Source of the DNA: Bacteroidota bacterium
GTDB taxonomy: Bacteria; Bacteroidota; Ignavibacteria; Kapaibacteriales; UBA2268
NCBI GenBank assembly: GCA_004322215.1
Contig: SCSM01000015.1
Location: 1-64,000, forward strand
Direction: 5' to 3'
DNA: 64,000 bases
Shown: positions 4,172-29,169 of the stretch, piece by piece
Layout: every line of letters starts with the position of its first letter
How positions within the stretch are numbered: position 1 is the first letter of the stretch
Position numbers and translations under genes: made by a program
Notes under the pieces: model-generated
Told to the model about the DNA's origin: nothing
Databases searched by the model: none
Seen by the model: only the letters and a program-made list of their open reading frames with translations

Positions 4172-5974
4172 TTAATTTATTTTTTTAGATTCTTTTGCAA
4201 TCGTTTCAAGTCTTTTCAACGGAAATATCATCCTGAAAGTCGAACCTTTATCAGGTATAGAATCAACTTCAAGTGTTCCGCCATGTTCCTTTACAATTTT
4301 ATTGACAGTCAGTAAACCCAATCCGGTTCCTTTATTCCCTTTTGTAGTAAAGAAAGTTGTAAAAATTTGTTGAATAACTGCTGAATCCATGCCACAGCCA
4401 TTATCACTAACCTCGAAAACCAAAGTTGCATGTTTGAATTTAGTCCTGATTTCAACTTTACCTTTTTTATCTTCTCTCATCATAGCGGCATCTATAGCAT
4501 TCGATACAAGGTTTGTCAGACATGATTCGATACCATCGGGGTCCAATGGAAAATTATAAACGCTTTTACCAAGTTCGGAAATTAATTCGACATTTTGAGT
4601 CCTTGCTGTTTCATAATATAATTCCGTAATGTCCTTTACAATTTTATTTGGGTCAACAGGAACAAGTTCAGGAAGCCTGCCCTTTGCAAAACTTAAAAAT
4701 CCTTTAACCAAATCCGTTGTTTTATTAAAATTTCTCTGGAGAATTTCCCAGCCTTCAACAATTCGGGAGGCTTCGCCTTGCCTCAAGCCTGTATCGACGA
4801 TATACATTCCTCCTTCGAGTCCCATTAATACATTTTTTATCGTGTGGGCAAGGCCTGCAACCGTTTGGCCTACGGTACCTAATCTTTCAGCTTCCATTCT
4901 CTCTTTTTCCAGTACTTTTATTCTTCTCAAATCTTGAAAAAAGGCTACTCTGCCGAGAATATCTTTTTTACTTCTTAATTCCAATGCATTAAATCTTACG
5001 GGAATATCTTTACCGTTTGAATCAATGATTGTGGCTTCTTCCTTCTTTGTAATAATGCCTTTTTTATTTGGCTTTCCGAAAAATTCCTTCGGAAAAATAC
5101 TTTTTAGGGAATTATAGACAGGTTTTTTATTTGATTGCCAGCTTAAAATATTCTTAGCAGATGAGTTCATTATAACAGTTTTATTTCTCTCATTTGTTGC
5201 GATTATCCCATCATCGGAATTTTCAATTAACGTTGCGAAAAAGTCATGGGATTTTCTTAAAGAATCCTGAAGCTCGGTGATTTCTGTAATATCATTTGCT
5301 ATTTCCATCACCAATTGTACTCCTTTTTCATTTTTTGAAAGGGTCGATGTGTTAACAAAATATCTTGTTTCTTCTCCTGAAAAAGTAGTGCCTATTTCCG
5401 ACGAAAAATGGTCGAGTCCATCCTTGAAAGTAAGTGCTGCCGGACACCTCCGGCATCTCCTACCCCTTTTTTTATACACTTCATAACAGTGCTTACCTTG
5501 TACCTCTCCAAATGTGTCCCTAAGCTTTTTGTTCGCTCGTATTATCCTATAATTTGTATCAATAATGGATAAATAACTCGGGACGTTTTCAAAGAAAATA
5601 TTATATTCCCTCTGGAACTTTGTTGTCTCTGTTACATCTGTTGACATTTCGACAACATATTTTACTTTACCAGATTTATCTCTTAATGGTGCAAGATGCA
5701 CAATATAGTGGCAAATTTTATTATTTTTATCAATGCCTGATTCGTTAGAGACTTTTGTAACACCTTGTTCAAATACTTCTTTTATCATGCAATGTGAACA
5801 TTGAACGGAAGTTTTCTTATATACTTCATAGCATTTTTTCCCTTCCCAATCTCCAAAATATTCTCGAAAGTTGTTATTTGCCTGAATAATATTTAAGTCT
5901 TTATCTATGATGTCTAAATTAAATGGTAACAAATCATATAATTGTTCTGCTATTATTTCTTGTAATTCTTCCAA
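4172..5974 (-). CDS. PAS-domain sensor histidine kinase with cysteine-pair PAS domains
   Basis: 600 aa, soluble, no membrane segment. There are three PAS domains (about residues 12-115, 125-235, 242-352), then a HisKA-type helix with the conserved His in GLAHTIKN (H377), then an HATPase domain (N-box NLVSNAID, G1 SDNGCGM, G2 TTKGNKGTGLGL). The first two PAS domains each carry C-Y-E-V-Y...CxxC: C48, C59/C62 and C163, C174/C177. Such triads could bind a metal or iron-sulfur cluster or sense thiol redox state. It is a close relative in length and layout of the kinase at 48053-49855. The partner is the adjacent receiver protein. The signal is unknown; cytosolic redox or sulfur state is my inference. 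Confidence 0.9.
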   Translation of the reverse strand: MEELQEIIAEQLYDLLPFNLDIIDKDLNIIQANNNFREYFGDWEGKKCYEVYKKTSVQCSHCMIKEVFEQGVTKVSNESGIDKNNKICHYIVHLAPLRDKSGKVKYVVEMSTDVTETTKFQREYNIFFENVPSYLSIIDTNYRIIRANKKLRDTFGEVQGKHCYEVYKKRGRRCRRCPAALTFKDGLDHFSSEIGTTFSGEETRYFVNTSTLSKNEKGVQLVMEIANDITEITELQDSLRKSHDFFATLIENSDDGIIATNERNKTVIMNSSAKNILSWQSNKKPVYNSLKSIFPKEFFGKPNKKGIITKKEEATIIDSNGKDIPVRFNALELRSKKDILGRVAFFQDLRRIKVLEKERMEAERLGTVGQTVAGLAHTIKNVLMGLEGGMYIVDTGLRQGEASRIVEGWEILQRNFNKTTDLVKGFLSFAKGRLPELVPVDPNKIVKDITELYYETARTQNVELISELGKSVYNFPLDPDGIESCLTNLVSNAIDAAMMREDKKGKVEIRTKFKHATLVFEVSDNGCGMDSAVIQQIFTTFFTTKGNKGTGLGLLTVNKIVKEHGGTLEVDSIPDKGSTFRMIFPLKRLETIAKESKKIN

Positions 5975-6541
5975 CTAAATTTCTCTTAATAATAATCAAT
6001 ACCACAAATATATAAATATAAGTGATAATTTATTCCTAATACCTCTAACACTGTTATATTTATGATTGTTGTCATAAAATGAATAGAAATTAATTTATAT
6101 TTTTTAAGTTATTGATTTTACACATTAATTATAAATGAACTATTAGAATAAAAATGAATTTATTTTTCCTGTTTTTATAACTAATTATATTTTATGAACT
6201 TATTAATACAACATATAAATCACATTTGATGGAAATAGTCTATAAGTACACTCTCTGGTTGACAATAGTGTTCCGATTATTCTTTATTTTGTAGTAAAGT
6301 TAATATTGTATTTTATTATGCTAAATAAAAGAATAAATTAATAAAAAATAACTATATGTATGTAATATTTTGTTTGGTATAGAATTATAATTTTCAATGA
6401 GTTAATTGTATTCTGAAATTTCTCATTTAAAGCAAATAAAATACAAGTATAAAAAAAGAATGTTAAGTCTTATAAATATATGGATATTTAAATAATTTAC
6501 AAATAAGAAATATATTTTAATTTACTAACTGGAGCGAAAAA
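5975..6541. other. Divergent intergenic region between kinase and redox operon
   Basis: 567 bp, very AT-rich, between the leftward kinase gene and the rightward redox operon. It must carry both promoters, but I cannot pick a convincing TTTG / TAnnTTTG pair. I see no small gene, tRNA or clear hairpin. A GGAGCG ribosome-binding site lies just before the ATG at 6542. Confidence 0.45.
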
Positions 6542-6931
6542 ATGAATAATAGTAAAAAGAAAATTTTGGTTGTGGACGACGAACCCGACGTCCTAAAGTA
6601 CTTGGAAACTCTATTTTCAGATAATGGATTTATAGTTTTTACAGCAGTTAATGGCGCTGATTGTATGTTAAAAGCATTGTGTGAAAACCCAGATTTAATC
6701 ACTCTTGATATTTCTATGCCTTCAGAATCGGGGGTAAGAGTATTCAGAGACCTTCAGGAAAACGAACAAACAAAAAATATTCCTGTAATTATCATCACTG
6801 GAATTACCGGCGAATTCCAAAAATTTATTTCAACACGCAAACAGGTGCATCCTCCTATTGATTATTATGAAAAACCAATTGACAGAGACAAACTGCTTTT
6901 ACGTGTTAAAGAAATATTAAAAATTGATTAA
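6542..6931 (+). CDS. Stand-alone response regulator receiver
   Basis: 129 aa, a receiver domain only: acidic D12/D13, phosphoacceptor D56 (LITLDISMP), Thr in IITGIT, Lys in YEKPIDR. It is clearly more similar to the 125-aa receiver at 47638-48015 than to its neighbour at 3639: both share VDDEPDV, the GVRxFREL/DL region, a segment of FISTRxQVxPP, and EKPIDR. It leads the redox operon (29 bp before the iron-sulfur subunit gene). With no output domain it may act by binding a kinase or the redox complex. The GGAGCG site supports the start. Confidence 0.88.
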   Translation: MNNSKKKILVVDDEPDVLKYLETLFSDNGFIVFTAVNGADCMLKALCENPDLITLDISMPSESGVRVFRDLQENEQTKNIPVIIITGITGEFQKFISTRKQVHPPIDYYEKPIDRDKLLLRVKEILKID

Positions 6932-6960
6932 TTATTTATTTTATTCCTATTGAGGAAAAT

Positions 6961-8325
6961 ATGTTCTATGAAAATCAAAAAAAGGCAGTTGAAATTCCTG
7001 ATATGAAATATATTATCGATAAACCGCCTTTGGGTGATAGAGTTTCTAAATTTCTTGAAATTTTTGCTTCTATATTAGACCATAGCAATTACCGTATTGC
7101 ACTCGAACATTACATACATGTATCGGCTAAATGCTCAAGATGTGCAAGCAGCTGCCATGTTTTCCAAACAACAAAAGATTTGAAAGATATACCCTGCTAC
7201 CGTTCCGAATTACTACTCAGTATCTATAGGCGTTACTTCTCATTCGAAGGAAGTATGTTTGCAAGGATATTTGGAGGGTTTGAACTTACTGAAGAACATA
7301 TTGATAAAATGGCTCATTCATTCTGGAACTGTACTGCCTGCCGTAAATGTGTCCTGGAATGTCCATCAGGCTTAGACCATGGAATGATGACTCATCTTGC
7401 CAGGTATATTATGGCAGAAATGAATCTTGTACCAAGAGCTTTAGTAGTATCAACAAGGGAGCAATTGCATGGTGCTACCGGAAATACTTCTGGAATACCT
7501 TTAGTTGCATTAAAAGATTCTCTTGAATTTCTTGAGGAAGAACTTAAGGAAATGCTGGAAGTTGATATTAAATTTCCCCTTGATGTTGAAAATTCGGAAT
7601 ATATATTTTTTGCACCTGTCTCCGATTATTTAATGGAGGCAGATACTCTGATGGGTATTGCTGCTGTTCTTCATGCCGCCGGAGTAAGCTGGACCATAGG
7701 TTCAAAATATTTCGATGCTATTAATTATGGCTTATTTTACAGTGACCTTGTTTTGGGGAGAGTATTAAGAAAGATACAGGAAGAAACTCAGAGATTGAAG
7801 GCTAAGAAAGTATTAATAGGTGAGTGCGGCCATGCCTCCCGTAGTGCGACCTTCCTTAAAACATATTGGCGAGGAGACGATTGCCCTGAAATTATTAATA
7901 TCATGGAGCTAACAAATCAATTGCTCAAAGAAGGAAGAATCAAGCTCGACCCTAATAAAGTAACAGAACGGGTTACTTACCACGACCCATGCAATATTGT
8001 CCGCCAGGGATGGATAGTCGAACAGCCAAGAGAAATTATAAGAACTTTCTGTAAAGACTTTGTCGAAATGACACCGAACAGAACTGAGAATTATTGCTGT
8101 GGCGGTGGAGGAGGTACTGTCTCGATTGATGAAATTAGAAAGTACAGGACATCTATTTCCGGTTATAAAAAAGCTGAGCAAATAAGGAAAACCGGAGCCC
8201 ATTATGTTATTGCTCCCTGTGCGAATTGCAAAAAGCAGATTCGGGAAACGATGGAAGATAATAAAGTTGACGGTGAACTTGTGGGATTGCACGATTTGAT
8301 TTTAAAGGCAATAGTGATTGATTAG
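6961..8325 (+). CDS. HmcF/DsrK-like heterodisulfide reductase-type iron-sulfur protein
   Basis: 454 aa, cytoplasmic. Two ferredoxin-type cluster motifs: C58xxC61xxxC65 with a further C79, and C124xxC127xxC130xxxC134P. Two CCG domains follow, ending in HDPCN...NYCCGGGGG and APCANC; these bind the unusual [4Fe-4S] cluster of HdrB/HdrD. In Hmc, Tmc and DsrMK complexes such a subunit sits on the cytoplasmic face with a NarI-like cytochrome b (here at 12072) and reduces a disulfide or similar acceptor. The fourth ligand of the first cluster is not in the usual CP position, which is unusual. Homologous to the DsrK-like protein at 49995-51596. Confidence 0.85.
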   Translation: MFYENQKKAVEIPDMKYIIDKPPLGDRVSKFLEIFASILDHSNYRIALEHYIHVSAKCSRCASSCHVFQTTKDLKDIPCYRSELLLSIYRRYFSFEGSMFARIFGGFELTEEHIDKMAHSFWNCTACRKCVLECPSGLDHGMMTHLARYIMAEMNLVPRALVVSTREQLHGATGNTSGIPLVALKDSLEFLEEELKEMLEVDIKFPLDVENSEYIFFAPVSDYLMEADTLMGIAAVLHAAGVSWTIGSKYFDAINYGLFYSDLVLGRVLRKIQEETQRLKAKKVLIGECGHASRSATFLKTYWRGDDCPEIINIMELTNQLLKEGRIKLDPNKVTERVTYHDPCNIVRQGWIVEQPREIIRTFCKDFVEMTPNRTENYCCGGGGGTVSIDEIRKYRTSISGYKKAEQIRKTGAHYVIAPCANCKKQIRETMEDNKVDGELVGLHDLILKAIVID

Positions 8326-18701: not shown

Positions 18702-19577
18702 ATGAATCAGTTTGATTTGAAAACTGTCCCGCAAGAAGAGTTGGTATCATTTTACGGTCTTTTATTTTCGGCAGGTAATTCTGATAAAGAACTTGATAAA
18801 GAAGACTTATCTGCAATTTATGAATTGATAGATTTGGATTTACTTGACTACCAGCATAAAGAGATTGTAAAAGATTTCATTCTTAAACCACCCGATACGG
18901 ATATTTGTTTGAAAACTTTATCTAACGGCACAGAGGAATTGAAATTTTCTGTATTAGTGGGTATTGTAGAAGTCGCACTTGCTGATGATGTTATAGTAGA
19001 TGAAGAGATGTTATTTCTTAACAGAGTTTGCCATGAATTAAATATAACACAGGAACAGTTAGAAGCTATAATCAACTTTATTAAAGAAGGTAAAAGAATA
19101 CAAAGAGAAGGTCTTGACAACAATGCAGCCGAACTTGCATTGAAAAGTGCAGCCAGTGGATTGACAGCTGTCGGTGTACCAATAGCAGCCGTTTATTTTA
19201 GTGGAACTGTTATTGGTTTAAGTGCAGCCGGAATAACATCCGGGCTTGCCACTTTAGGATTAGGGCTTGGTATGGTTCCGGGTATAGGAGTGGCTATCCT
19301 GATAGGAACAGGAATATTTGTTAGTCTAAAAGCATTATTCGGAGACAGCAAAAAGAAAAAGGAAAAAATTATAAGAGGTGAAAATGAAAGAAAATCACAG
19401 CTTGTTATTAAAAATCTACATGAAGCAATAAACAAAATAATTAGTAAAATAGAAGAACTGCAAGTAAAAGCACTTCAATCTGATGCCAATGAAAATGCTA
19501 TCAATGAGCTTAAAGAAAGACTTCTAAAACTTAAAAAGATAGTATTACAAAAACAAGGAATAGCTTATGTTCAGTAA
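18702..19577 (+). CDS. TerB-like domain protein with glycine-rich membrane hairpin
   Basis: 291 aa, preceded by GGAGG. Residues about 75-130 resemble a TerB domain: VLVGIVEVALADDVIVDEEMLFL, with acidic residues D95, D96, D100 to E102 that could bind metal. Residues 152-213 are an unusual Gly/Ala/Leu-rich double hydrophobic segment (glycine-zipper-like), then a basic KKKKEK stop-transfer and a C-terminal coiled coil (about 230-284). TerB occurs in tellurite/stress and phage-conflict gene systems, often linked to membrane modules. The start of the next gene overlaps its end by 11 bp. First gene of a four-gene run that I do not recognise. Confidence 0.6.
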   Translation: MNQFDLKTVPQEELVSFYGLLFSAGNSDKELDKEDLSAIYELIDLDLLDYQHKEIVKDFILKPPDTDICLKTLSNGTEELKFSVLVGIVEVALADDVIVDEEMLFLNRVCHELNITQEQLEAIINFIKEGKRIQREGLDNNAAELALKSAASGLTAVGVPIAAVYFSGTVIGLSAAGITSGLATLGLGLGMVPGIGVAILIGTGIFVSLKALFGDSKKKKEKIIRGENERKSQLVIKNLHEAINKIISKIEELQVKALQSDANENAINELKERLLKLKKIVLQKQGIAYVQ

Positions 19578-20994
19578 TAAGGAATTGATTGAACTAAAGT
19601 CTATTCTTGTTGCACAACGTAATATCATGCTCACGGTTAAAATGGCTCTTAATGAGATTGAAAAAAGCATTAATAGTAATTCAGTTCATCAGCAAGCAAT
19701 TGTTGAATTAAATTCTGATTTAGACTTCATCGAGAAATATGTCGACCTGTTAGATTCAACTGATATTGAATTTTCTGATGATGACATATCAAAATATTAT
19801 ACAGAAACAAATAAGAAATATACAGCAGACATTGAGAAATTAACATTTGAGAATTGGAAACAATTTGTTCGTGATACGACTGCTTATAATATTCGGAACA
19901 ATCTTAACTTATTTTCACCCTATGATTCAATGCTGACTGATGAAGATTTGAAACTATTAAAATCTGATAATTATCATAAGCAATATCAATGGGATAAATG
20001 GGATTATATTTTTGTCGGTTTTGCCGGTATTATAGCTTCGATAACAGACCATTTATTTGTTAAAATTCCAATTGATTTAACCGCAGGTAAATATATTGGT
20101 CAATCAGGAAGTGAAATTACTAAAAAGTTAAGAGACATTCATCTCCCGGATAATATTCAGAAGTGGTTAGAGAATTTTTCTAAAGTACCTTATGATGTTG
20201 TGAATGATGGTTTAGAAGGTATGGCAGGTAGAACACACCGAATGCAGTCTTTGGGACATGACCCTATTCTTGGATTCATTTTTGGAATAATAGATATTTA
20301 CAATGGCAGTTTAACAGGTTTTTCATATAATAGTAAATCAAAACTACATACACTTACCACAAAAATAGTTTCAAAGAATCAATCTATAAGTTTAACAAAG
20401 GCATTTTTATTACAACTTGGACATTTATTATCTGATGTTGGAACAAAAATGGGTATTCAGCCACCCTTTTTTACATTATTTCAAGGTATTAATTTTAAAA
20501 ATAAATTCTCGCCTAAAAATAGAACAATCGGAGAAATTGCACGTTGGATGTATATAAACGGATATGATTTTAGACATTTTCTAACTATGGGTGTTACCCC
20601 TGGTACAATTGAAATTATTCTTAGAACATACCTAATGATACGCCATTATTTTGAAAAAGGTGAAATTGAATTTAAATTAGCAAATAATCCGAAATATCGC
20701 AGTATGCTATTATCAGCACATTCAATAGCATGTTTAAGCAATGCAGGAAAGGTAGCTATATATCAAGCTAATCCTCTGGCTATTAATTATACTGAATGGT
20801 TAGCACTAATCAGGTATTTAGTCCCATCATTGAAATATTGGGTTTTTGATAAAACAAGATTAAAACTTGAGTACATTGAAAAAATCAATGAAAATGGTTG
20901 GTCTGAAATAATTGTGGAATCAAATATTATTCTCAATAAAATAATTTCAACCGAATCAAATAGATTTGAATTGGGAAGGACAAATTTATTATAA
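19567..20994 (+). CDS. Putative membrane-bound metal-dependent hydrolase, YdjM/DUF457-like
   Basis: 475 aa. A helical N-terminal third (about 1-130) precedes a region with spaced acidic and histidine residues in hydrophobic surroundings: ITDH (D161, H162), RTHRM (H224), GHDPILGFIFG (H231, D232) and LGHLLSDVGTKMGIQPP (H286, D290, T293). The last resembles the GHLLLDxxTPxG motif of YdjM/DUF457 proteins, zinc-dependent membrane hydrolases related to phospholipase C. This is a motif-level match only; the rest is unfamiliar. It overlaps the TerB-like gene by 11 bp, so the two products are probably made and used together. The substrate could be a phospholipid, but that is inference. Confidence 0.45.
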   Translation: MFSNKELIELKSILVAQRNIMLTVKMALNEIEKSINSNSVHQQAIVELNSDLDFIEKYVDLLDSTDIEFSDDDISKYYTETNKKYTADIEKLTFENWKQFVRDTTAYNIRNNLNLFSPYDSMLTDEDLKLLKSDNYHKQYQWDKWDYIFVGFAGIIASITDHLFVKIPIDLTAGKYIGQSGSEITKKLRDIHLPDNIQKWLENFSKVPYDVVNDGLEGMAGRTHRMQSLGHDPILGFIFGIIDIYNGSLTGFSYNSKSKLHTLTTKIVSKNQSISLTKAFLLQLGHLLSDVGTKMGIQPPFFTLFQGINFKNKFSPKNRTIGEIARWMYINGYDFRHFLTMGVTPGTIEIILRTYLMIRHYFEKGEIEFKLANNPKYRSMLLSAHSIACLSNAGKVAIYQANPLAINYTEWLALIRYLVPSLKYWVFDKTRLKLEYIEKINENGWSEIIVESNIILNKIISTESNRFELGRTNLL

Positions 20995-22079: not shown

Positions 22080-22408
22080 AAATTTTGCAGATTTCGGAAA
22101 ATATGAAAAATCAGATCCGGCTATTTTTGCATGGTATCAGTTTTATCTGATTTTCTGTCGTACCAAAAAAATAGTATCGCTATTAAATTTTGGAAAAAAT
22201 TAGGTTTGATATTTTATCATATTTTCTACTAAAAATTTATTAATTTATACTTCATAAATAAAATAATGATATTTATTTTTAATTACATCAAATGATCTGG
22301 TATAGTTAATGTAAGAAAGTGTTTGTATAAAACAGAAAATAGTTCACATTTGATGATAAATTGTAAAAGTATATAGTCCAAAGTTAATAATATTATATTT
22401 GCTATTTT
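22080..22408. other. Intergenic region with an inverted repeat
   Basis: 329 bp of AT-rich sequence. It contains AAAATCAGAT (22107-22116) and ATCTGATTTT (22145-22154), a perfect 10-bp inverted repeat with a 28-nt loop that could end the upstream operon, though no T-tract follows directly. Near its right end TATATTTG (22394-22401) fits the -7 consensus just 8 nt before the ATG of the next gene, which would give an almost leaderless transcript. Nothing else seen. Confidence 0.4.
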
Positions 22409-23749
22409 ATGGATGACAAAAACCAAAATAGAATCATTGATGTTCTTCTGAAAGAATACGAAGACAGAAGAAATGAAAATTCTTGGCATACAGAAAGATA
22501 CCATAAACAAATAAAATTCGTAACAATTTATTTCTCCATCTTGATTTCAATTATTAGTTTATTATCAAATCTTAACAATAAGGAAATTTTAAACAAAGCA
22601 ATTATTATTGAAAATTTATCAATTAATTATGATATTATCATCTATATAATTCTAATTGTAGCTCCTGTTTTAGGTTTCTATTTATTTACCGTTGTATTAG
22701 ATGCTTTATTTATGTTAGCTATTAATGGCATAAGAGCAGGTATTATCGAAATAAAAATTAACAAATTAGTAGATAATAGCATACTTGTTTGGAATCATAA
22801 GATAATATCGAATTTATTTTCACTTGATAAAACACATTATAAATCTTGGATTAAACCAAATTTATTATTATCAATATGGGTCTTTATCATTTATTTAGCA
22901 GTCAATATATCTTTTTGTATATTTTGTTATTATTCTGCAAATAGTATGTTTTTTATATACTCATATATTTTAATAGCTTTAACTATATTTCACTTATATC
23001 AATTTCTTGCTTTTCACTTAATTGGTGTGCAACATATTTCAGATGAAATTCATTTAGAATCAGAAGAAGCAGTTAGTAATTTTAATATTCATAAATTTAA
23101 TGCTGATATACCTGTATTGGTAATAATATTATCAATTATGATTGGTTACATTCCAATGCTATTATTTAGTATTCAGTCCAAATCATTTCTTCCTTCTATT
23201 TATTACCAATTTCCATTTTCAACAAATATTTCTGTATTAGTTGGTGATTTATTTTTTATACCTTTATTTAATTTTTACTTTCTAAAATTAATTATTAATG
23301 TGAGGAATAAAATAAAAGTTTTAATTATCCCATTAATAGTAATATTCCTATTTTCTTTATTAGCCCAATTTTTTATTCATTGGATATGGATTTCAGATTC
23401 TTATTTAGGATTTATGGATCTTTATTTAAATAAGCTTTCTTTTGCAGGTTGGTGGCATCTTTTTTACTCAGTTATTGAAACTACTGCAATATTATTATTT
23501 TTATTTATTGCTTGGAAGTTTAGAAAATTGGAAGATATTATTAAAATCAGTTTTAGGGGTTTTATTATTTTTACAATTTATTCTTTTCTTAGTATAATTG
23601 ATTTAATAATTCAAGAAAATTTTGTATATAAATCTTATAATTTTACTTTGTTTCTATATCGATATTCAGTTGTTTTTATAAAATTAGTTTTGGTAGTTAT
23701 CATCTTAATTGGTTTAAAGATGAGGTATAATAAACTCAAAAAGATATAA
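22409..23749 (+). CDS. Polytopic membrane protein, unknown
   Basis: 446 aa, very AT-rich and Ile/Phe/Leu-rich. After a charged cytoplasmic N-terminus (about 1-33, LLKEYEDRRNENSWHTERYHKQ) there are nine or ten predicted transmembrane helices (near 36-54, 72-100, 152-178, 180-207, 230-250, 265-285, 303-327, 345-368, 374-393, 405-428). No transporter signature is visible. The short charged N-terminus before the first helix recalls small membrane effectors in conflict systems, but the match is weak. It is transcribed alone; an inverted repeat separates it from the convergent polymerase-like gene. Confidence 0.6.
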   Translation: MDDKNQNRIIDVLLKEYEDRRNENSWHTERYHKQIKFVTIYFSILISIISLLSNLNNKEILNKAIIIENLSINYDIIIYIILIVAPVLGFYLFTVVLDALFMLAINGIRAGIIEIKINKLVDNSILVWNHKIISNLFSLDKTHYKSWIKPNLLLSIWVFIIYLAVNISFCIFCYYSANSMFFIYSYILIALTIFHLYQFLAFHLIGVQHISDEIHLESEEAVSNFNIHKFNADIPVLVIILSIMIGYIPMLLFSIQSKSFLPSIYYQFPFSTNISVLVGDLFFIPLFNFYFLKLIINVRNKIKVLIIPLIVIFLFSLLAQFFIHWIWISDSYLGFMDLYLNKLSFAGWWHLFYSVIETTAILLFLFIAWKFRKLEDIIKISFRGFIIFTIYSFLSIIDLIIQENFVYKSYNFTLFLYRYSVVFIKLVLVVIILIGLKMRYNKLKKI

Positions 23750-23775
23750 TCAATTATTTTAGAACTTCAAAACCT

Positions 23776-23882
23776 AATACATCAAAATTTTGCTATAATT
23801 TCTATATATTATTCTAATACCTATAATAAACAACCATCACTAAATGCTTGGGTATTTACCAAATTCAAAATTTTGATGTATT
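23776..23882. repeat. 17-bp perfect inverted repeat in a convergent gap
   Basis: AATACATCAAAATTTTG (23776-23792) is the exact reverse complement of 23866-23882. The two arms enclose 73 bp. The 13-mer TATTATTCTAATA also occurs twice in the same direction here, once inside and once overlapping the right arm. It lies between the 3' ends of two convergent genes, so it may be a bidirectional terminator or the relic of an element end. Confidence 0.6.
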
Positions 23883-23904
23883 ATTCTAATATCTCAACTT
23901 CACT

Positions 23905-25461
23905 TTAACTCTTCCTTTTCGTTTTAAACAACTTTTCAAACGTCTCTGAACTGACAGTTGTAATTGTGTGTTCTCGTTCATCCTGACTAACGGTGTCGTT
24001 TATTTTAAACGTTTTTAAACATTGAGTATGTGAATTATTCTCTGAATTTTCATTTACAATTTCCGGGTGATAAGTATTACTATTGAACTCATACAAATAT
24101 AGCTTTTTCTCTTGTTCCTCTATATTATGGAACTCAAGTTTTAAAGGTAAACGAATACCATGTAATCTATAGCCGACTTCGAGTATTTTATTTCTTGTTT
24201 TAATTACATCTTCAATTGAAGGGTCAAATATCATGATTGAATCATGTATAGTTGCATAGAACATATTTTCTGGCATTTCTTTCAATAATGTGTGAATCCA
24301 TATTTCTGATTCCATTTTCTGTATTCTTTTAGCAAGTTCAGAACCACCAGGGTTAATCCAATTAACAGGATGATTTTCTAACAATTCTAATCTTTGTTTT
24401 TCGGTTATCAGTGCCTTAAAGAATTTAGGATAAGCAGTCGAACAATATTTAGCAAATTTTCTTATCTCCTGTATTTTATCGTTACCGTCTTTAAACTTTA
24501 GAGTATAAGCACCATTACTTTTTGTAAAAAGGAGTGTGTCCATTATTCTTTGTTTAACCCACTCTCTTGTTTCATTCATATCATGTGCAATAGTGTCATA
24601 CAATAAACCTGATAAACAAAGCTGTTTTACTTCGGGTTCTATTTCGTATTTATTACTTTCCAAATACAAACAGAGCATCAACGGTTGCGTATTAGAGCCA
24701 TCAATTTCAATTTTCTTGTTTAGAACCATTCCTGAACATATATCTTGTATATAAAGAAATTTTCTTAGTGCCTTTGGAAAAGATGTCAAGACTGTATTAA
24801 ACCTTGAATTTGACAACGAAACAGACAAATTATGCAAGAAACCATGATGTATCTTATTAACTGAATCTAAATAGTAATTTACCTTTACCATGATATTCTT
24901 TTGTTGGTTTTTAGGCTTTTTATCATTTTCTTCAACCCATATCGGCTCTTGTTCAGTTATCCATTTATCAGCTTCTTCCTTATCAATAAACAGACATTGT
25001 AGGTTATCGTATTGCTGATGTAAGTAGGGTTTTAATTTTAGATACCTGTTCTTATAGAACTTTTGCTTGATATTAATTATCTTCTTGATTACTCCCTTGT
25101 ATTTGTATGGATAGATGATAGATCTTTCAAAGAAGTATTTATCTGCAAGCTTGAACTGATATGACCTATTACCGGGTGAATAGAAACCTGATTTTTCAAT
25201 TATACCTAATTGAATCAATCTCTCAACAGATTTGATGTAATAATCGGAAGAAAAGATTGCACGCAATAAGTCAGAATGATAGCCAATTGCAGGATTCTGT
25301 TCTTCAGTGTCTTTGTAGATATGGTTTTGCAGTTTCAAATGCGTGATAAACAAAAGTGCATTTTCAAGAAGTTTAGGGTTTTTGAACGTAATATCATTTT
25401 TTAAAATAGCCATGATACTATCTGGCACAATGGCTGCGAAATTAGTGTTTTCATAGAACAT
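23905..25461 (-). CDS. Winged-helix protein with family-A / T7-RNA-polymerase-like palm motifs
   Basis: 518 aa. Residues about 30-110 look like a winged-helix domain (LLRAIFSS...SVERLIQLGIIEKSG...YQFKLADKY). The centre carries three motifs in the order and character of the polymerase A superfamily: motif A EIDGSNTQP (D254), motif B RxxxKxxxM (R299, K303, M307) and motif C TIHDSIMI (H406, D407). DGS and HDS are the forms found in T7-type single-subunit RNA polymerases; the spacing (49 and 104 residues) is nearer to family A DNA polymerases. The motif B tyrosine is replaced by Leu (L311). The tail after about residue 455 is low-complexity. Beside the integrase, it is probably the replication or transcription protein of a mobile element. 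Confidence 0.5.
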   Translation of the reverse strand: MFYENTNFAAIVPDSIMAILKNDITFKNPKLLENALLFITHLKLQNHIYKDTEEQNPAIGYHSDLLRAIFSSDYYIKSVERLIQLGIIEKSGFYSPGNRSYQFKLADKYFFERSIIYPYKYKGVIKKIINIKQKFYKNRYLKLKPYLHQQYDNLQCLFIDKEEADKWITEQEPIWVEENDKKPKNQQKNIMVKVNYYLDSVNKIHHGFLHNLSVSLSNSRFNTVLTSFPKALRKFLYIQDICSGMVLNKKIEIDGSNTQPLMLCLYLESNKYEIEPEVKQLCLSGLLYDTIAHDMNETREWVKQRIMDTLLFTKSNGAYTLKFKDGNDKIQEIRKFAKYCSTAYPKFFKALITEKQRLELLENHPVNWINPGGSELAKRIQKMESEIWIHTLLKEMPENMFYATIHDSIMIFDPSIEDVIKTRNKILEVGYRLHGIRLPLKLEFHNIEEQEKKLYLYEFNSNTYHPEIVNENSENNSHTQCLKTFKINDTVSQDEREHTITTVSSETFEKLFKTKRKS

Positions 25462-25843: not shown

Positions 25844-26353
25844 CTAATCAGTAGATTTATCAGAATAATCGGAAACTAATAATTTAAAAGATTCATCAAT
25901 TATTTTGTCGGCTTGTTCCTCATTGAATTCTCCATTCAAAGTAATTTCGACAGACTTTTCGCTGTCCTTTATTCTTAAACATATACTTTGGGTTTTGTCA
26001 GATATTTTGCCGTCTGAATCAATTTTTTTTATTGGCAATTTTACTACGCTTTTCCAGAGAAATTTAATTCCTTTTTTTAATATATCATAAGCAAGATTGA
26101 CAGTAAGACCACCAAAAATAAGTTCAATATAATGTTGATTAAAGTATAAAATAATATCTGAAATTTCTATACCACTAAAGCAGTAATGTTGTTTTGTTAA
26201 TTTTTCTCTAATGATAATTATATCAAGTTGTTTATCAAGTTCTAACTTCATAAAGTCATCAATCAATTCTTCGGGTATGTAGTCCTGATAAACGATATTC
26301 AGACATTGTTTCATAGTATATCTATCTTTGTTGAAGAAATGTTTATGTTGCAA
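25844..26353 (-). CDS. Hypothetical protein in the integrase-linked region
   Basis: 169 aa as read from the first ATG; a second Met (residue 14, MKQCLNIVY) could be the real start. The first half is charged and helical. Residues about 70-105 are more hydrophobic (HYIELIFGGLTVNLAYDILKKGIKFLW) and may be one membrane-associated helix. The C-terminal third looks like a small beta-rich domain ending in an acidic tail. I do not recognise it. Same strand as the polymerase-like and integrase genes, with 380 bp and 266 bp gaps. Confidence 0.55.
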   Translation of the reverse strand: MQHKHFFNKDRYTMKQCLNIVYQDYIPEELIDDFMKLELDKQLDIIIIREKLTKQHYCFSGIEISDIILYFNQHYIELIFGGLTVNLAYDILKKGIKFLWKSVVKLPIKKIDSDGKISDKTQSICLRIKDSEKSVEITLNGEFNEEQADKIIDESFKLLVSDYSDKSTD

Positions 26354-26619: not shown

Positions 26620-27813
26620 TCATGTCTGAATGCTTGGTTTTGATTTTTTCTTCTTTTCCAACTCTTTTTTCTTCAAATCTTCTTCTGTTATCTCGATATT
26701 AATAATATCAGCTACCTCATCTTTTTTCTTGCTTATCAGGTTTGCATAAATTTCTGTTATAGCAACAGATGAATGCCCCATTATTTTTGACACTGTATAA
26801 ATATCAACACCCCGCGATAATGCCAGGGTTGCCCAAGTATGACGGGAAACATGGAAGTGGATATACTTTTGTATTCCGGCTTCAATTGCAATTTCTCTTA
26901 ATTTATCATTGATAAAAGATTTTGATTTTGGTAAATTAAATACAAAGATGTCTGAAGGATGTTTTTCTTTTTGCTTATTATAAATATCAATTGCTAATCT
27001 TGATAACTTAATGTTCGACACACCTTTTGTTTTTTGTTGTCTGAAATAGAGGTAGGCATCATTTTCTTTATTAAAATTAACATTTTTAAACTCTAATGCT
27101 CTTATATCACCCAATCTCAACGAGGTCTGTGAAGAAAAAATAAAAGCGTTTTTAATATCACTATATTTTGTATCAACCATAATAAATTTCTTGAGTTCAT
27201 CTTCATTTAAGAATTCTCTTTTGGATTCAATCCCTTTAATACGAATTTTACTTGCGGGATTTGTTGGTATAATATTATCACTGACAGCACGATTAAGGGT
27301 AGCTGCGAAAACGGTCATATAAGTTTTAGCAGTTTGATTTACTAATTTATTCTTTCCAACTAAGTCTAAGAGATACTCTCTGAACTTCATGCAAAATTTT
27401 GTATTGATTGAACTAAAATTCAAGTAGCTACTTTTAGTTTGTATTTTTACAAATTCTTCTAATTTTCTTAATGCTCCATTATATGAAGGGAGTTTATTTT
27501 TATTACTTATATTTTTAAAATAATCTAAAAAGTCTGCATCAGTGATTTTCTTATTCAATTTAAAATTGTTTTTATCTCCGAGATACTCCTGTTCGAGCAT
27601 ATCACGTTTTAGTTCTGCTTCATATAATACCCTTTTATCTTCTTTAGTAATGAACTCTTTACCGCTTACTTTCAAATTAAGAAATGTACGTTGCCGTTCC
27701 TTGTCTATATTATATTCAACATACAAACTAAAACCTTCGGGTAAATTATTGAGATGAATTTTCCCTTTCTTACTTTGATTTAATCTTTTAATTTCGTCCT
27801 TTAGTTTTGGCAT
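26620..27813 (-). CDS. Tyrosine recombinase / integrase, Bacteroidota type
   Basis: 397 aa. Arm-binding N-terminal domain (about 1-85), SAM-like core-binding domain (about 90-185) and catalytic domain (about 200-372). The catalytic set is complete: R233 (SLRLGDIR), K261-263 region, H321xxR324 (HVSRHTW), H347 (MGHSS) and Y356 (EIYANL). The C-terminus is a Lys/Glu tail. It catalyses site-specific insertion and excision of a mobile element. Its own upstream region, 230-280 bp away, holds the 3' half of a tRNA-Leu gene, a classic attachment site for this class, so the gene sits at one end of the element. Confidence 0.92.
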   Translation of the reverse strand: MPKLKDEIKRLNQSKKGKIHLNNLPEGFSLYVEYNIDKERQRTFLNLKVSGKEFITKEDKRVLYEAELKRDMLEQEYLGDKNNFKLNKKITDADFLDYFKNISNKNKLPSYNGALRKLEEFVKIQTKSSYLNFSSINTKFCMKFREYLLDLVGKNKLVNQTAKTYMTVFAATLNRAVSDNIIPTNPASKIRIKGIESKREFLNEDELKKFIMVDTKYSDIKNAFIFSSQTSLRLGDIRALEFKNVNFNKENDAYLYFRQQKTKGVSNIKLSRLAIDIYNKQKEKHPSDIFVFNLPKSKSFINDKLREIAIEAGIQKYIHFHVSRHTWATLALSRGVDIYTVSKIMGHSSVAITEIYANLISKKKDEVADIINIEITEEDLKKKELEKKKKSKPSIQT

Positions 27814-28040: not shown

Positions 28041-28093
28041 TTTCAGGGTGTAGTGAGAGAACTCTCGTGCAGGTTCGACTCCTGTTCCGGGCA
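28041..28093 (+). pseudogene. 3' half of tRNA-Leu(CAG): integration-site remnant
   Basis: The sequence from 28041 reads as the end of a class II tRNA: anticodon loop TTCAGGG (anticodon CAG at 28044-28046), 3' anticodon strand TGTAG, variable arm with GAGAG (28055-28059) and CTCTC (28062-28066), T arm GCAGG-TTCGACT-CCTGT (28069-28085), acceptor strand TCCGGGC (28086-28092) and discriminator A. The upstream bases do not give a matching D arm or 5' acceptor strand (GCCCGGA expected). A tRNA cut at the anticodon loop beside an integrase is the expected product of tRNA-directed integration. I could not find the intact partner tRNA in this window. Confidence 0.7.
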
Positions 28094-28108
28094 CTGAATT
28101 GAAAAATA

Positions 28109-28133
28109 AGACACTTGCGAGTGTCTTTTTTTC
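28109..28133 (+). terminator. Intrinsic terminator behind the tRNA-Leu remnant
   Basis: AGACACT (28109-28115), loop TGCG, AGTGTCT (28120-28126), then a run of seven T's. It follows the tRNA 3' end by 15 nt, so it is probably the native terminator of the tRNA gene. That implies chromosomal sequence lies to the right and the element to the left. Confidence 0.75.
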
Positions 28134-28275
28134 GTTATTGATGAAGTCGGAAAAACATGTCCAAGTACAAACCACGTACAAATCTGAAATAGTTTAAGAA
28201 AATCATTGTTCTACTCTTGGCTGATTCAATAGTCAACGTTAATTAGGACAGCGTAATTATTCATTAATCATAATT

Positions 28276-29169
28276 TTATCGCATAGGTCTGAAGGCAGTC
28301 GAGTTGAGGTATTCCCTGTGCCTCATGTCCAAAATCTCGTCAACAGGTATATTTTCGAGCAATGAATATTTCTCGGCAAGTGGTTTCATCTTGATTCCGA
28401 TGTCGGATATGCAGTAATAAAGCAGAATGCATAATTCGAAATTCGAGAGATGGTCGTGGAAAAGATTAGTGTATAGCCATTTGTTTTTGATTTCGCTCGA
28501 ATCGATGAATTTGATGATGTTATGTACATTCCTGAGGTAATGCCCCAGCACTTCTTGGTGGCGGTTGAAAAAGTTCAGGAATGCTTCGTTGATTGTTCCT
28601 TGTATATCCTCTTTATCGGGAAATGTACCGCCGACTATTTCTATGTGATTCGAGAAAATGTATTTGAAATCATTATAGAACTGGAAAAAGCATTGCCTGC
28701 CGACTATTCTTCTTTCCGTGTTGGTTACGACATCATACTGTTCGATTGTAATATTATTAACAATGTCATTATGCAGTGTAATCAACTGGAAAAATGTGTT
28801 TTCGAATGTCTGGATGAAAAGAGTCTGGTTTTGAGCTCTGAGTTGCTGTGTCTGCTCGATGACTTCCTGGCGGTTCAGCTCGAGCTCGTGTCTTTGGGAT
28901 TTTAGTTCCATTCTCTGGAAGCGGAGTGCTTCGTAAAAAAGAATAACTCCTGCTAAAGCCCATAGTGTGCCGACAGTTCCTTCGAGCAATTGACCCAAAG
29001 CACCGAGCTTGTTGTCCTGGATGTCGCTAATCCAGTTGAACACGAAAATATCGAGTGAGAACAAAATGAAAATTATTAAAATGATGACAATACCTATCCA
29101 TATAAGAGATATTGAAAATCCCTCATACGAAAATACTGCCGACGGTTGTTTTTTCTTTTTTTCAAACAT
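28276..29169 (-). CDS. Putative phage abortive infection protein (putAbiC-like)
   Basis: 297 aa. Two N-terminal transmembrane helices (about 17-42 and 60-83), then a Gln/Glu/Arg-rich coiled coil (about 84-118), then the soluble domain of the putAbiC type (PF16872): FENTFFQLITLHNDIVNNI (about 128-146) is the strongest match, followed by a helical domain with HxxxLGHYLRNVHNIIKFID. These membrane proteins are linked to abortive phage defence, but the mechanism is not known. It lies just outside the tRNA-Leu remnant and is divergent from rtcB (130 bp between starts). Confidence 0.8.
   Translation of the reverse strand: MFEKKKKQPSAVFSYEGFSISLIWIGIVIILIIFILFSLDIFVFNWISDIQDNKLGALGQLLEGTVGTLWALAGVILFYEALRFQRMELKSQRHELELNRQEVIEQTQQLRAQNQTLFIQTFENTFFQLITLHNDIVNNITIEQYDVVTNTERRIVGRQCFFQFYNDFKYIFSNHIEIVGGTFPDKEDIQGTINEAFLNFFNRHQEVLGHYLRNVHNIIKFIDSSEIKNKWLYTNLFHDHLSNFELCILLYYCISDIGIKMKPLAEKYSLLENIPVDEILDMRHREYLNSTAFRPMR

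Follow-up and report, generated by a model that had tools for sequence, protein, structure and literature searches.

The window, i.e., the stretch of 64,000 nucleotides that was analyzed, carries on its minus strand an open frame for a protein of 518 aa (Table 1). The frame runs from an ATG to a stop codon, and the plus strand contains many stop codons in the same region. A tyrosine integrase gene lies 1.2 kb upstream of it, with a shorter ORF in between. The product of this ORF was modeled from its single sequence with low confidence (pLDDT 52), and the model is a poor basis for a comparison with OB-fold SSB proteins. The host also has an ordinary Pol I of full length, encoded on a different contig. 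In the same genome, a second full-length paralogue of the polymerase, which is very diverged, is found beside a TPR-CHAT gene (L072, positions 6200-7441, minus strand).

Table 1. Positions of the polymerase gene, its motifs and the surrounding features in the window
Feature	Position	Strand	Evidence
Two genes matching Bunzi defence BnzA and BnzB, possible cargo	18702..20994	plus	PADLOC E 9.2e-37 and 1.7e-77
Perfect 18-nt inverted repeat just past the polymerase gene; may be a terminator, an origin or the end of the element	23775..23883	.	homology of decayed copies starts at 23763-23817
Compact family-A (TV-Pol-like) polymerase gene, 518 aa	23905..25461	minus (25461→23905)	open frame, fold, motifs in 29 relatives
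Motif C, residues 404-409, TIHDSI (catalytic D407)	24235..24252	minus	D407 29/29, H406 27/29, S408 27/29
IQKMESE, residues 380-386, counterpart of Pol I IQGTAAD by motif order	24304..24324	minus	E384 29/29, Q381 26/29
Motif B (O-helix), residues 299-307, RxxxKxxxM	24541..24567	minus	K303 29/29, R299 26/29
Motif A, residues 252-260, EIDGSNTQP (catalytic D254; Q259 at steric-gate position)	24682..24708	minus	D254 29/29, N257 and Q259 28/29
Template-contacting hairpin, residues 218-236 (R220, T226, R233)	24754..24810	minus	R220 29/29, T226 28/29, R233 27/29
N-terminal winged-helix-like domain, residues 29-105	25147..25377	minus	predicted secondary structure; region aligned by hhalign with TV-Pol-like proteins
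169-aa ORF between integrase and polymerase	25844..26353	minus	no Pfam/PHROG/PADLOC family
Tyrosine integrase of the element	26620..27813	minus	Phage_integrase 5.5e-21, Phage_int_SAM_5 4.2e-16
Duplicated 3' half of tRNA-Leu(CAG) and terminator, att-like right end	28042..28157	plus	copy of C3:8157-8272

The mobile element

The right edge of the element is marked by a partial tRNA-Leu gene, 229 bp from the start of the integrase gene. This copy is 93% identical over 116 bp, and 98% over the first 95 bp, to the corresponding segment of contig C3, where the tRNA-Leu gene is intact. At this edge, the G+C content steps from ~26-30 to ~39%. Just beyond the att-like repeat lies a putAbiC/AbiP-like gene (28276-29169, minus strand), which is not considered a part of the element because it is syntenic in two genomes of the same genus. 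In G003, a genome of the same genus, only 3.0 kb separate a NrfD-type gene from the putAbiC gene, whereas the window holds an insert of 12.8 kb between them. The Bunzi-like gene pair lies inside the same genome-specific insert as the polymerase gene. In G003, this integration hot spot is occupied by a gene for a phage terminase instead (L116, positions 5868-7367).

Decayed copies of the C-terminal part of the polymerase, 79-84% identical, are found elsewhere in the genome, two of them on C20 and one on C33. Their homology begins beside the perfect 18-nt inverted repeat that follows the polymerase gene. In the C33 copy, a stretch resembling 22083-22133 is joined directly to 23798; the segment in between (22134-23797), which contains an ORF of 446 aa, is missing there. 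No clean left end could be located for the element: the decayed copies indicate a position at about 23.76-23.82 kb, whereas by synteny with G003 the insert starts at around 15.5 kb.

Bases 1-91 of the window contig are the reverse complement of the first 91 bases of C3, and the two contigs probably join at this 91-bp overlap. C3 also holds a second integrase fragment, at nearly equal spacing to a tRNA-Leu fragment. Since the genes clustered at 1.1-15.5 kb are syntenic in G003, no claim is made that a single element spans the entire region from one tRNA-Leu copy to the other. The mobile-element setting that an earlier note on this DNA had recognized is substantiated by the tyrosine integrase, the genome-specific insert, the tRNA-Leu repeat and the decayed copies elsewhere in the genome.

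Predicted fold and conserved residues

An AlphaFold2 model of the polymerase, built with an alignment of 12 sequences, has a mean pLDDT of 70 and a pTM of 0.64, with values of ~85-92 for most of the palm. In VIA-align, the model matched T7 DNA polymerase (Z 17.0; 283 aa, 4.6 Å), Pol theta (Z 16.6) and Klenow (Z 15.8). These fold alignments cover about 280 residues at 4.1-4.8 Å, and the identity to the Pol I/T7 DNA polymerase types amounts to ~9-15%. The same DNA polymerase families are among the matches listed by Foldseek (E 2.7e-4), and T7 RNAP and other single-subunit RNAPs are absent among the fold matches listed by the two programs. Matches in the BFVD viral library include a barbavirus (divPolA2-type) Barba phage protein, virophage replication proteins and unnamed small phage proteins. 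Thus, the structure prediction and fold search that the earlier note had suggested revealed a palm fold, and the matching of family-A DNA polymerases, together with the conserved catalytic residues discussed below, bears out its claim of a family-A-type polymerase palm.

Ahead of the palm, the prediction contains helices at residues 29-50, 64-69 and 72-84, followed by strands at 88-92 and 102-105. This is the topology of a winged helix and agrees with the domain that had been proposed to precede the polymerase motifs. Two further predicted helices, 118-143 and 184-205, are located at the candidate two-helix coiled-coil thumb, where the confidence of the model is mixed.

Translation of the gene confirmed the order and the places of motifs A, B and C as described before. 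Motif B displays R299, K303 and M307, and its O-helix Tyr position is indeed occupied by Leu (L311). Among 29 aligned sequences, six residues are the same throughout (R220, D254, K303, P345, E384 and D407), and five more are found in 28 (N257, Q259, K355, Y288 and T226). Because these residues are conserved across 29 relatives, the motifs are not due to chance. The invariant set includes D254, K303 and D407, on the conservation of which the earlier note had made its proposal depend. Motif A reads DI.NSQP in most family members. Most relatives, i.e., 24 of the 29, have Phe or Tyr at the O-helix position; Leu is present there in three, which are the window protein, L002 and L003.

Two additional signatures of family-A polymerases had been overlooked before. 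The pattern R220xxTxxTxxxxxxR233 in the hairpin precedes motif A, in the same order as the TGRLSS Arg and a downstream Arg of the host Pol I. Similarly, IQ381KME384SE is positioned just ahead of motif C, as is IQGTAAD in the host Pol I.

Relatives and placement among compact polymerases

Single-sequence searches of Pfam, PHROG, NCBIfam, PADLOC and PDB with the window protein yielded no credible match, and the family profile matched PDB sequences not at all or only by chance. Also by scans of Pfam, PHROGs, NCBIfam and PADLOC, the protein could not be assigned to a curated family, and the family is absent from every curated protein library scanned. Relatives were recovered by searches with small alignments. 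Judged by its sequence conservation and predicted structure, the window protein together with these relatives is a real, uncatalogued subfamily of compact family-A polymerases.

The full-length relatives measure 387-548 aa, with one exception of 686 aa that has a fused C-terminal domain. They are found in genomes of Ignavibacteria/Kapabacteria, in large phage contigs of IMG/VR and on one Hymenobacter plasmid. Bacteroidota is the phylum of the window, and of 395 genomes sampled at this level, 14 contain a relative, counting the window's own genome. Six uncultured-phage records of 595-735 kb carry one each (among them L020, positions 5368-6561, and L038-L041), and the family suggests an identity for the gene in these records. 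Two of the six have an equal length of 735,411 bases and encode identical relatives. A genome of 735 kb is the largest phage genome reported in PMC7162821, and from its length and source type, one of the 735-kb records is presumably that genome. In a tree of the core region, nine members from large phages are grouped with a support of 100/99, and the window protein pairs with its Ignavibacteria relative with a support of 99/98; deeper branches are weak.

As to the question raised in the earlier note, whether homologues sit beside integrases, a tyrosine integrase was found within the scanned neighborhood of six of the 14 relative loci examined. At three of the 14, the gene is adjoined by an AAA_24 ATPase gene, accompanied at two of these three by DUF3871. 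Restriction enzymes or methylases are encoded near other relatives, and a reverse transcriptase is also among the neighbors. The relative at L080 (6523-8583) has a C-terminal match to a model of group I intron endonucleases of the GIY-YIG type.

The closest known relatives, which are not mentioned in the earlier note, are TV-Pol and divPolA2. The TV-Pol family was described by Iyer, Abhiman and Aravind (2008; PMC2579912), and its carriers named there include Microcystis phage LMM01. The TV-Pol-like profile assembled here comprises an LMM01 ORF located beside transposase genes, which we take to be the TV-Pol meant in that study, together with proteins of a Calothrix plasmid, two Polaromonas plasmids and two genomes of the window's phylum. 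The divPolA2 profile consists of six phage proteins. In hhalign, the 29-sequence profile matched the TV-Pol-like profile with an E of 2.4e-11 (Prob 97) in an alignment of 340 columns that extends to the N-terminal region. It matched the divPolA2 profile with an E of 7.8e-11 and the motifs in register, in the palm only (profile columns 200-408), and no shared N-terminal domain was detected in that comparison. Controls with reversed, column-shuffled and integrase alignments gave E values of 0.2 or worse. Small profiles were needed here, as a single divPolA2 or LMM01 sequence is too thin for comparison. The window protein alone reached an E of only 0.19 against the TV-Pol-like HMM and is, therefore, placed in a subfamily separate from the TV-Pol-like set. 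Motif A of L083, EIDMRNCHYALF, is intermediate between DISNSQPLF of the family and DIENCHYSI of the TV-Pol-like set. Taken together, the two profile matches, the clean controls and the intermediate motif of L083 suggest that the window family most plausibly forms a branch of its own within the TV-Pol group, taken broadly. Three sets of compact family-A polymerases with separate descriptions are connected in this way, i.e., TV-Pol, divPolA2 and the window family.

Like the TV-Pols (PMC2579912), the window protein has a compact palm core with two Asp residues (D254 and D407), no Pfam nuclease, a β-hairpin with an absolutely conserved Arg (here R220) ahead of motif A, and RxxxK in the fingers. 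The TV-Pols are likewise carried on integrase- or transposase-bearing elements, plasmids and phages. Their motif A, however, is D..NCHYS instead of DI.NSQP, and a D5-like helicase is neither fused to the window protein nor encoded among its Pfam-scanned neighbors. Such a helicase, fused or adjacent, is one of several alternative TV-Pol contexts and is not obligatory (PMC2579912). The TV-Pol-like gene of a Polaromonas plasmid is located 11 bp from repA, which favors a role in replication. Like divPolA2, a protein of ~430 aa found in barbaviruses, ICP1 and phages related to them (PMC11348598), the window family combines a family-A palm with a novel N-terminal domain and lacks an exonuclease. In contrast, motif A of the reference divPolA2, AUR84708, is DFKAFET, its hosts are mostly gammaproteobacteria, and the match is confined to the palm and fingers.

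Possible function of the polymerase

The fold, the conservation of catalytic and template-contacting residues, the homology to the TV-Pol-like and divPolA2 proteins, the linkage to the integrase and the tRNA-Leu repeat, and the decayed copies are computed results. The polymerase is probably active as an enzyme. We consider it fairly likely that it is a compact TV-Pol-type member of family A, devoid of an exonuclease, that serves the replication of the excised element. By analogy, its most likely role would be that of a TV-Pol-type primase/polymerase. The integrase would excise the element in circular form, its DNA may be bound by the winged helix of the polymerase, and the thumb/palm/fingers core may start and/or extend DNA strands on a single-stranded template; the element would then replicate before its reintegration or loss. 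The start of synthesis might be primer-independent, as was demonstrated for CCPol-MP, which has been proposed to replicate SCC elements (PMC7581432), and as was predicted for the TV-Pols (PMC2579912).

Like the CCPol-MP/PolA-SSB primases of SCC elements (PMC7581432, PMC10061031), the window protein is an A-family polymerase on a recombinase-bearing element. However, the PolA-SSB primases have kept a sequence that resembles Pol I, and they have an OB-fold SSB and a helicase as partners, whereas neither a helicase nor an SSB gene was recognized in the element in a Pfam scan of the window neighbors. This counts against a replicase, as do the Leu at the O-helix Tyr position, the non-significant sequence comparison with Pol I/T7 polymerases and the presence of a separate replication initiator on a plasmid with a relative of the polymerase. 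A more far-reaching proposal is that a self-contained winged-helix/polymerase would recognize the origin of the element, lay its own primer and elongate it without a separate primase, with a Gln/Leu gate that relaxes sugar selectivity, and would represent one more kind of replicative primase, employed by integrative elements of Bacteroidota and by the largest known phages. This we regard as unlikely. If primase activity is confirmed, the range of A-family primases would widen from elements of Bacillota to those of Bacteroidota and to megaphages.

The earlier note had labeled the protein as T7-RNA-polymerase-like. It does share the palm superfamily and the DGS, RxxxKxxxM and HDS letters with T7 RNA polymerase, but Gln259 and Leu311 replace Gly542 (the position of Pol I Glu710) and the motif-B Tyr639 of the latter. 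Moreover, since the Gln is near-invariant and the O-helix position is mostly Phe/Tyr across the family, DGS and Met307 are not family traits. The fold matches listed are DNA polymerases, and a T7 RNA polymerase reading of the window protein is unlikely. The idea of a polymerase used by the integrase-bearing element holds in so far as a family-A palm is encoded next to an integrase within a mobile segment, but its T7 RNA polymerase half is not supported. When the family profile was compared by hhalign with the Pol I set, T7 DNA polymerase and T7 RNA polymerase, no significant match was obtained (E 0.39 for T7 RNA polymerase). The resemblance to Pol I (Klenow, Taq) and T7 DNA polymerase resides in the best fold matches (Z 15-17) and the order of all motifs, but the window protein lacks a 3'-5' exonuclease and has Gln for the steric-gate Glu. 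In Pol I, the Glu/Tyr pair at the steric gate and the O-helix excludes ribonucleotides. Because this pair is Gln259/Leu311 in the window protein, sugar selection might be relaxed.

A dedicated T7-type RNA polymerase that transcribes the genes of the element is distinctly improbable, as, besides the replaced residues and the fold matches, no promoter-recognition domain of the T7 RNAP type was seen, although for the homologous divPolA2 an RNA polymerase was left open on fold grounds (PMC11348598). The gene could also be cargo that encodes a primer-dependent DNA polymerase for repair or gap filling and not the replicase of the element. Repair has been proposed as a possible function of divPolA2 (PMC11348598), and the varied neighborhoods of the relatives, in which restriction, methylase and reverse transcriptase genes are found, are compatible with it; still, the recurrent link to integrases, plasmids and large phages and the N-terminal DNA-binding domain in common with TV-Pol-like proteins make such a role rather unlikely.

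Even less probable is a part in anti-phage defence, e.g., the production of protective or toxic nucleic acid in the manner of defence reverse transcriptases. The Bunzi-like pair in the insert and the restriction genes near relatives speak for it, but no PADLOC model was matched, except RT_X at an E of 0.019, and phages including megaphages themselves encode relatives of the polymerase. That the protein is an inactive remnant in a decaying element is hardly credible: three decayed copies in the genome and the replacement of the O-helix Tyr by Leu might be taken as signs of it, but the Leu is common to two other full-length relatives, and the frame in the window is open over its full length with every invariant residue in place, whereas the other copies are visibly broken.
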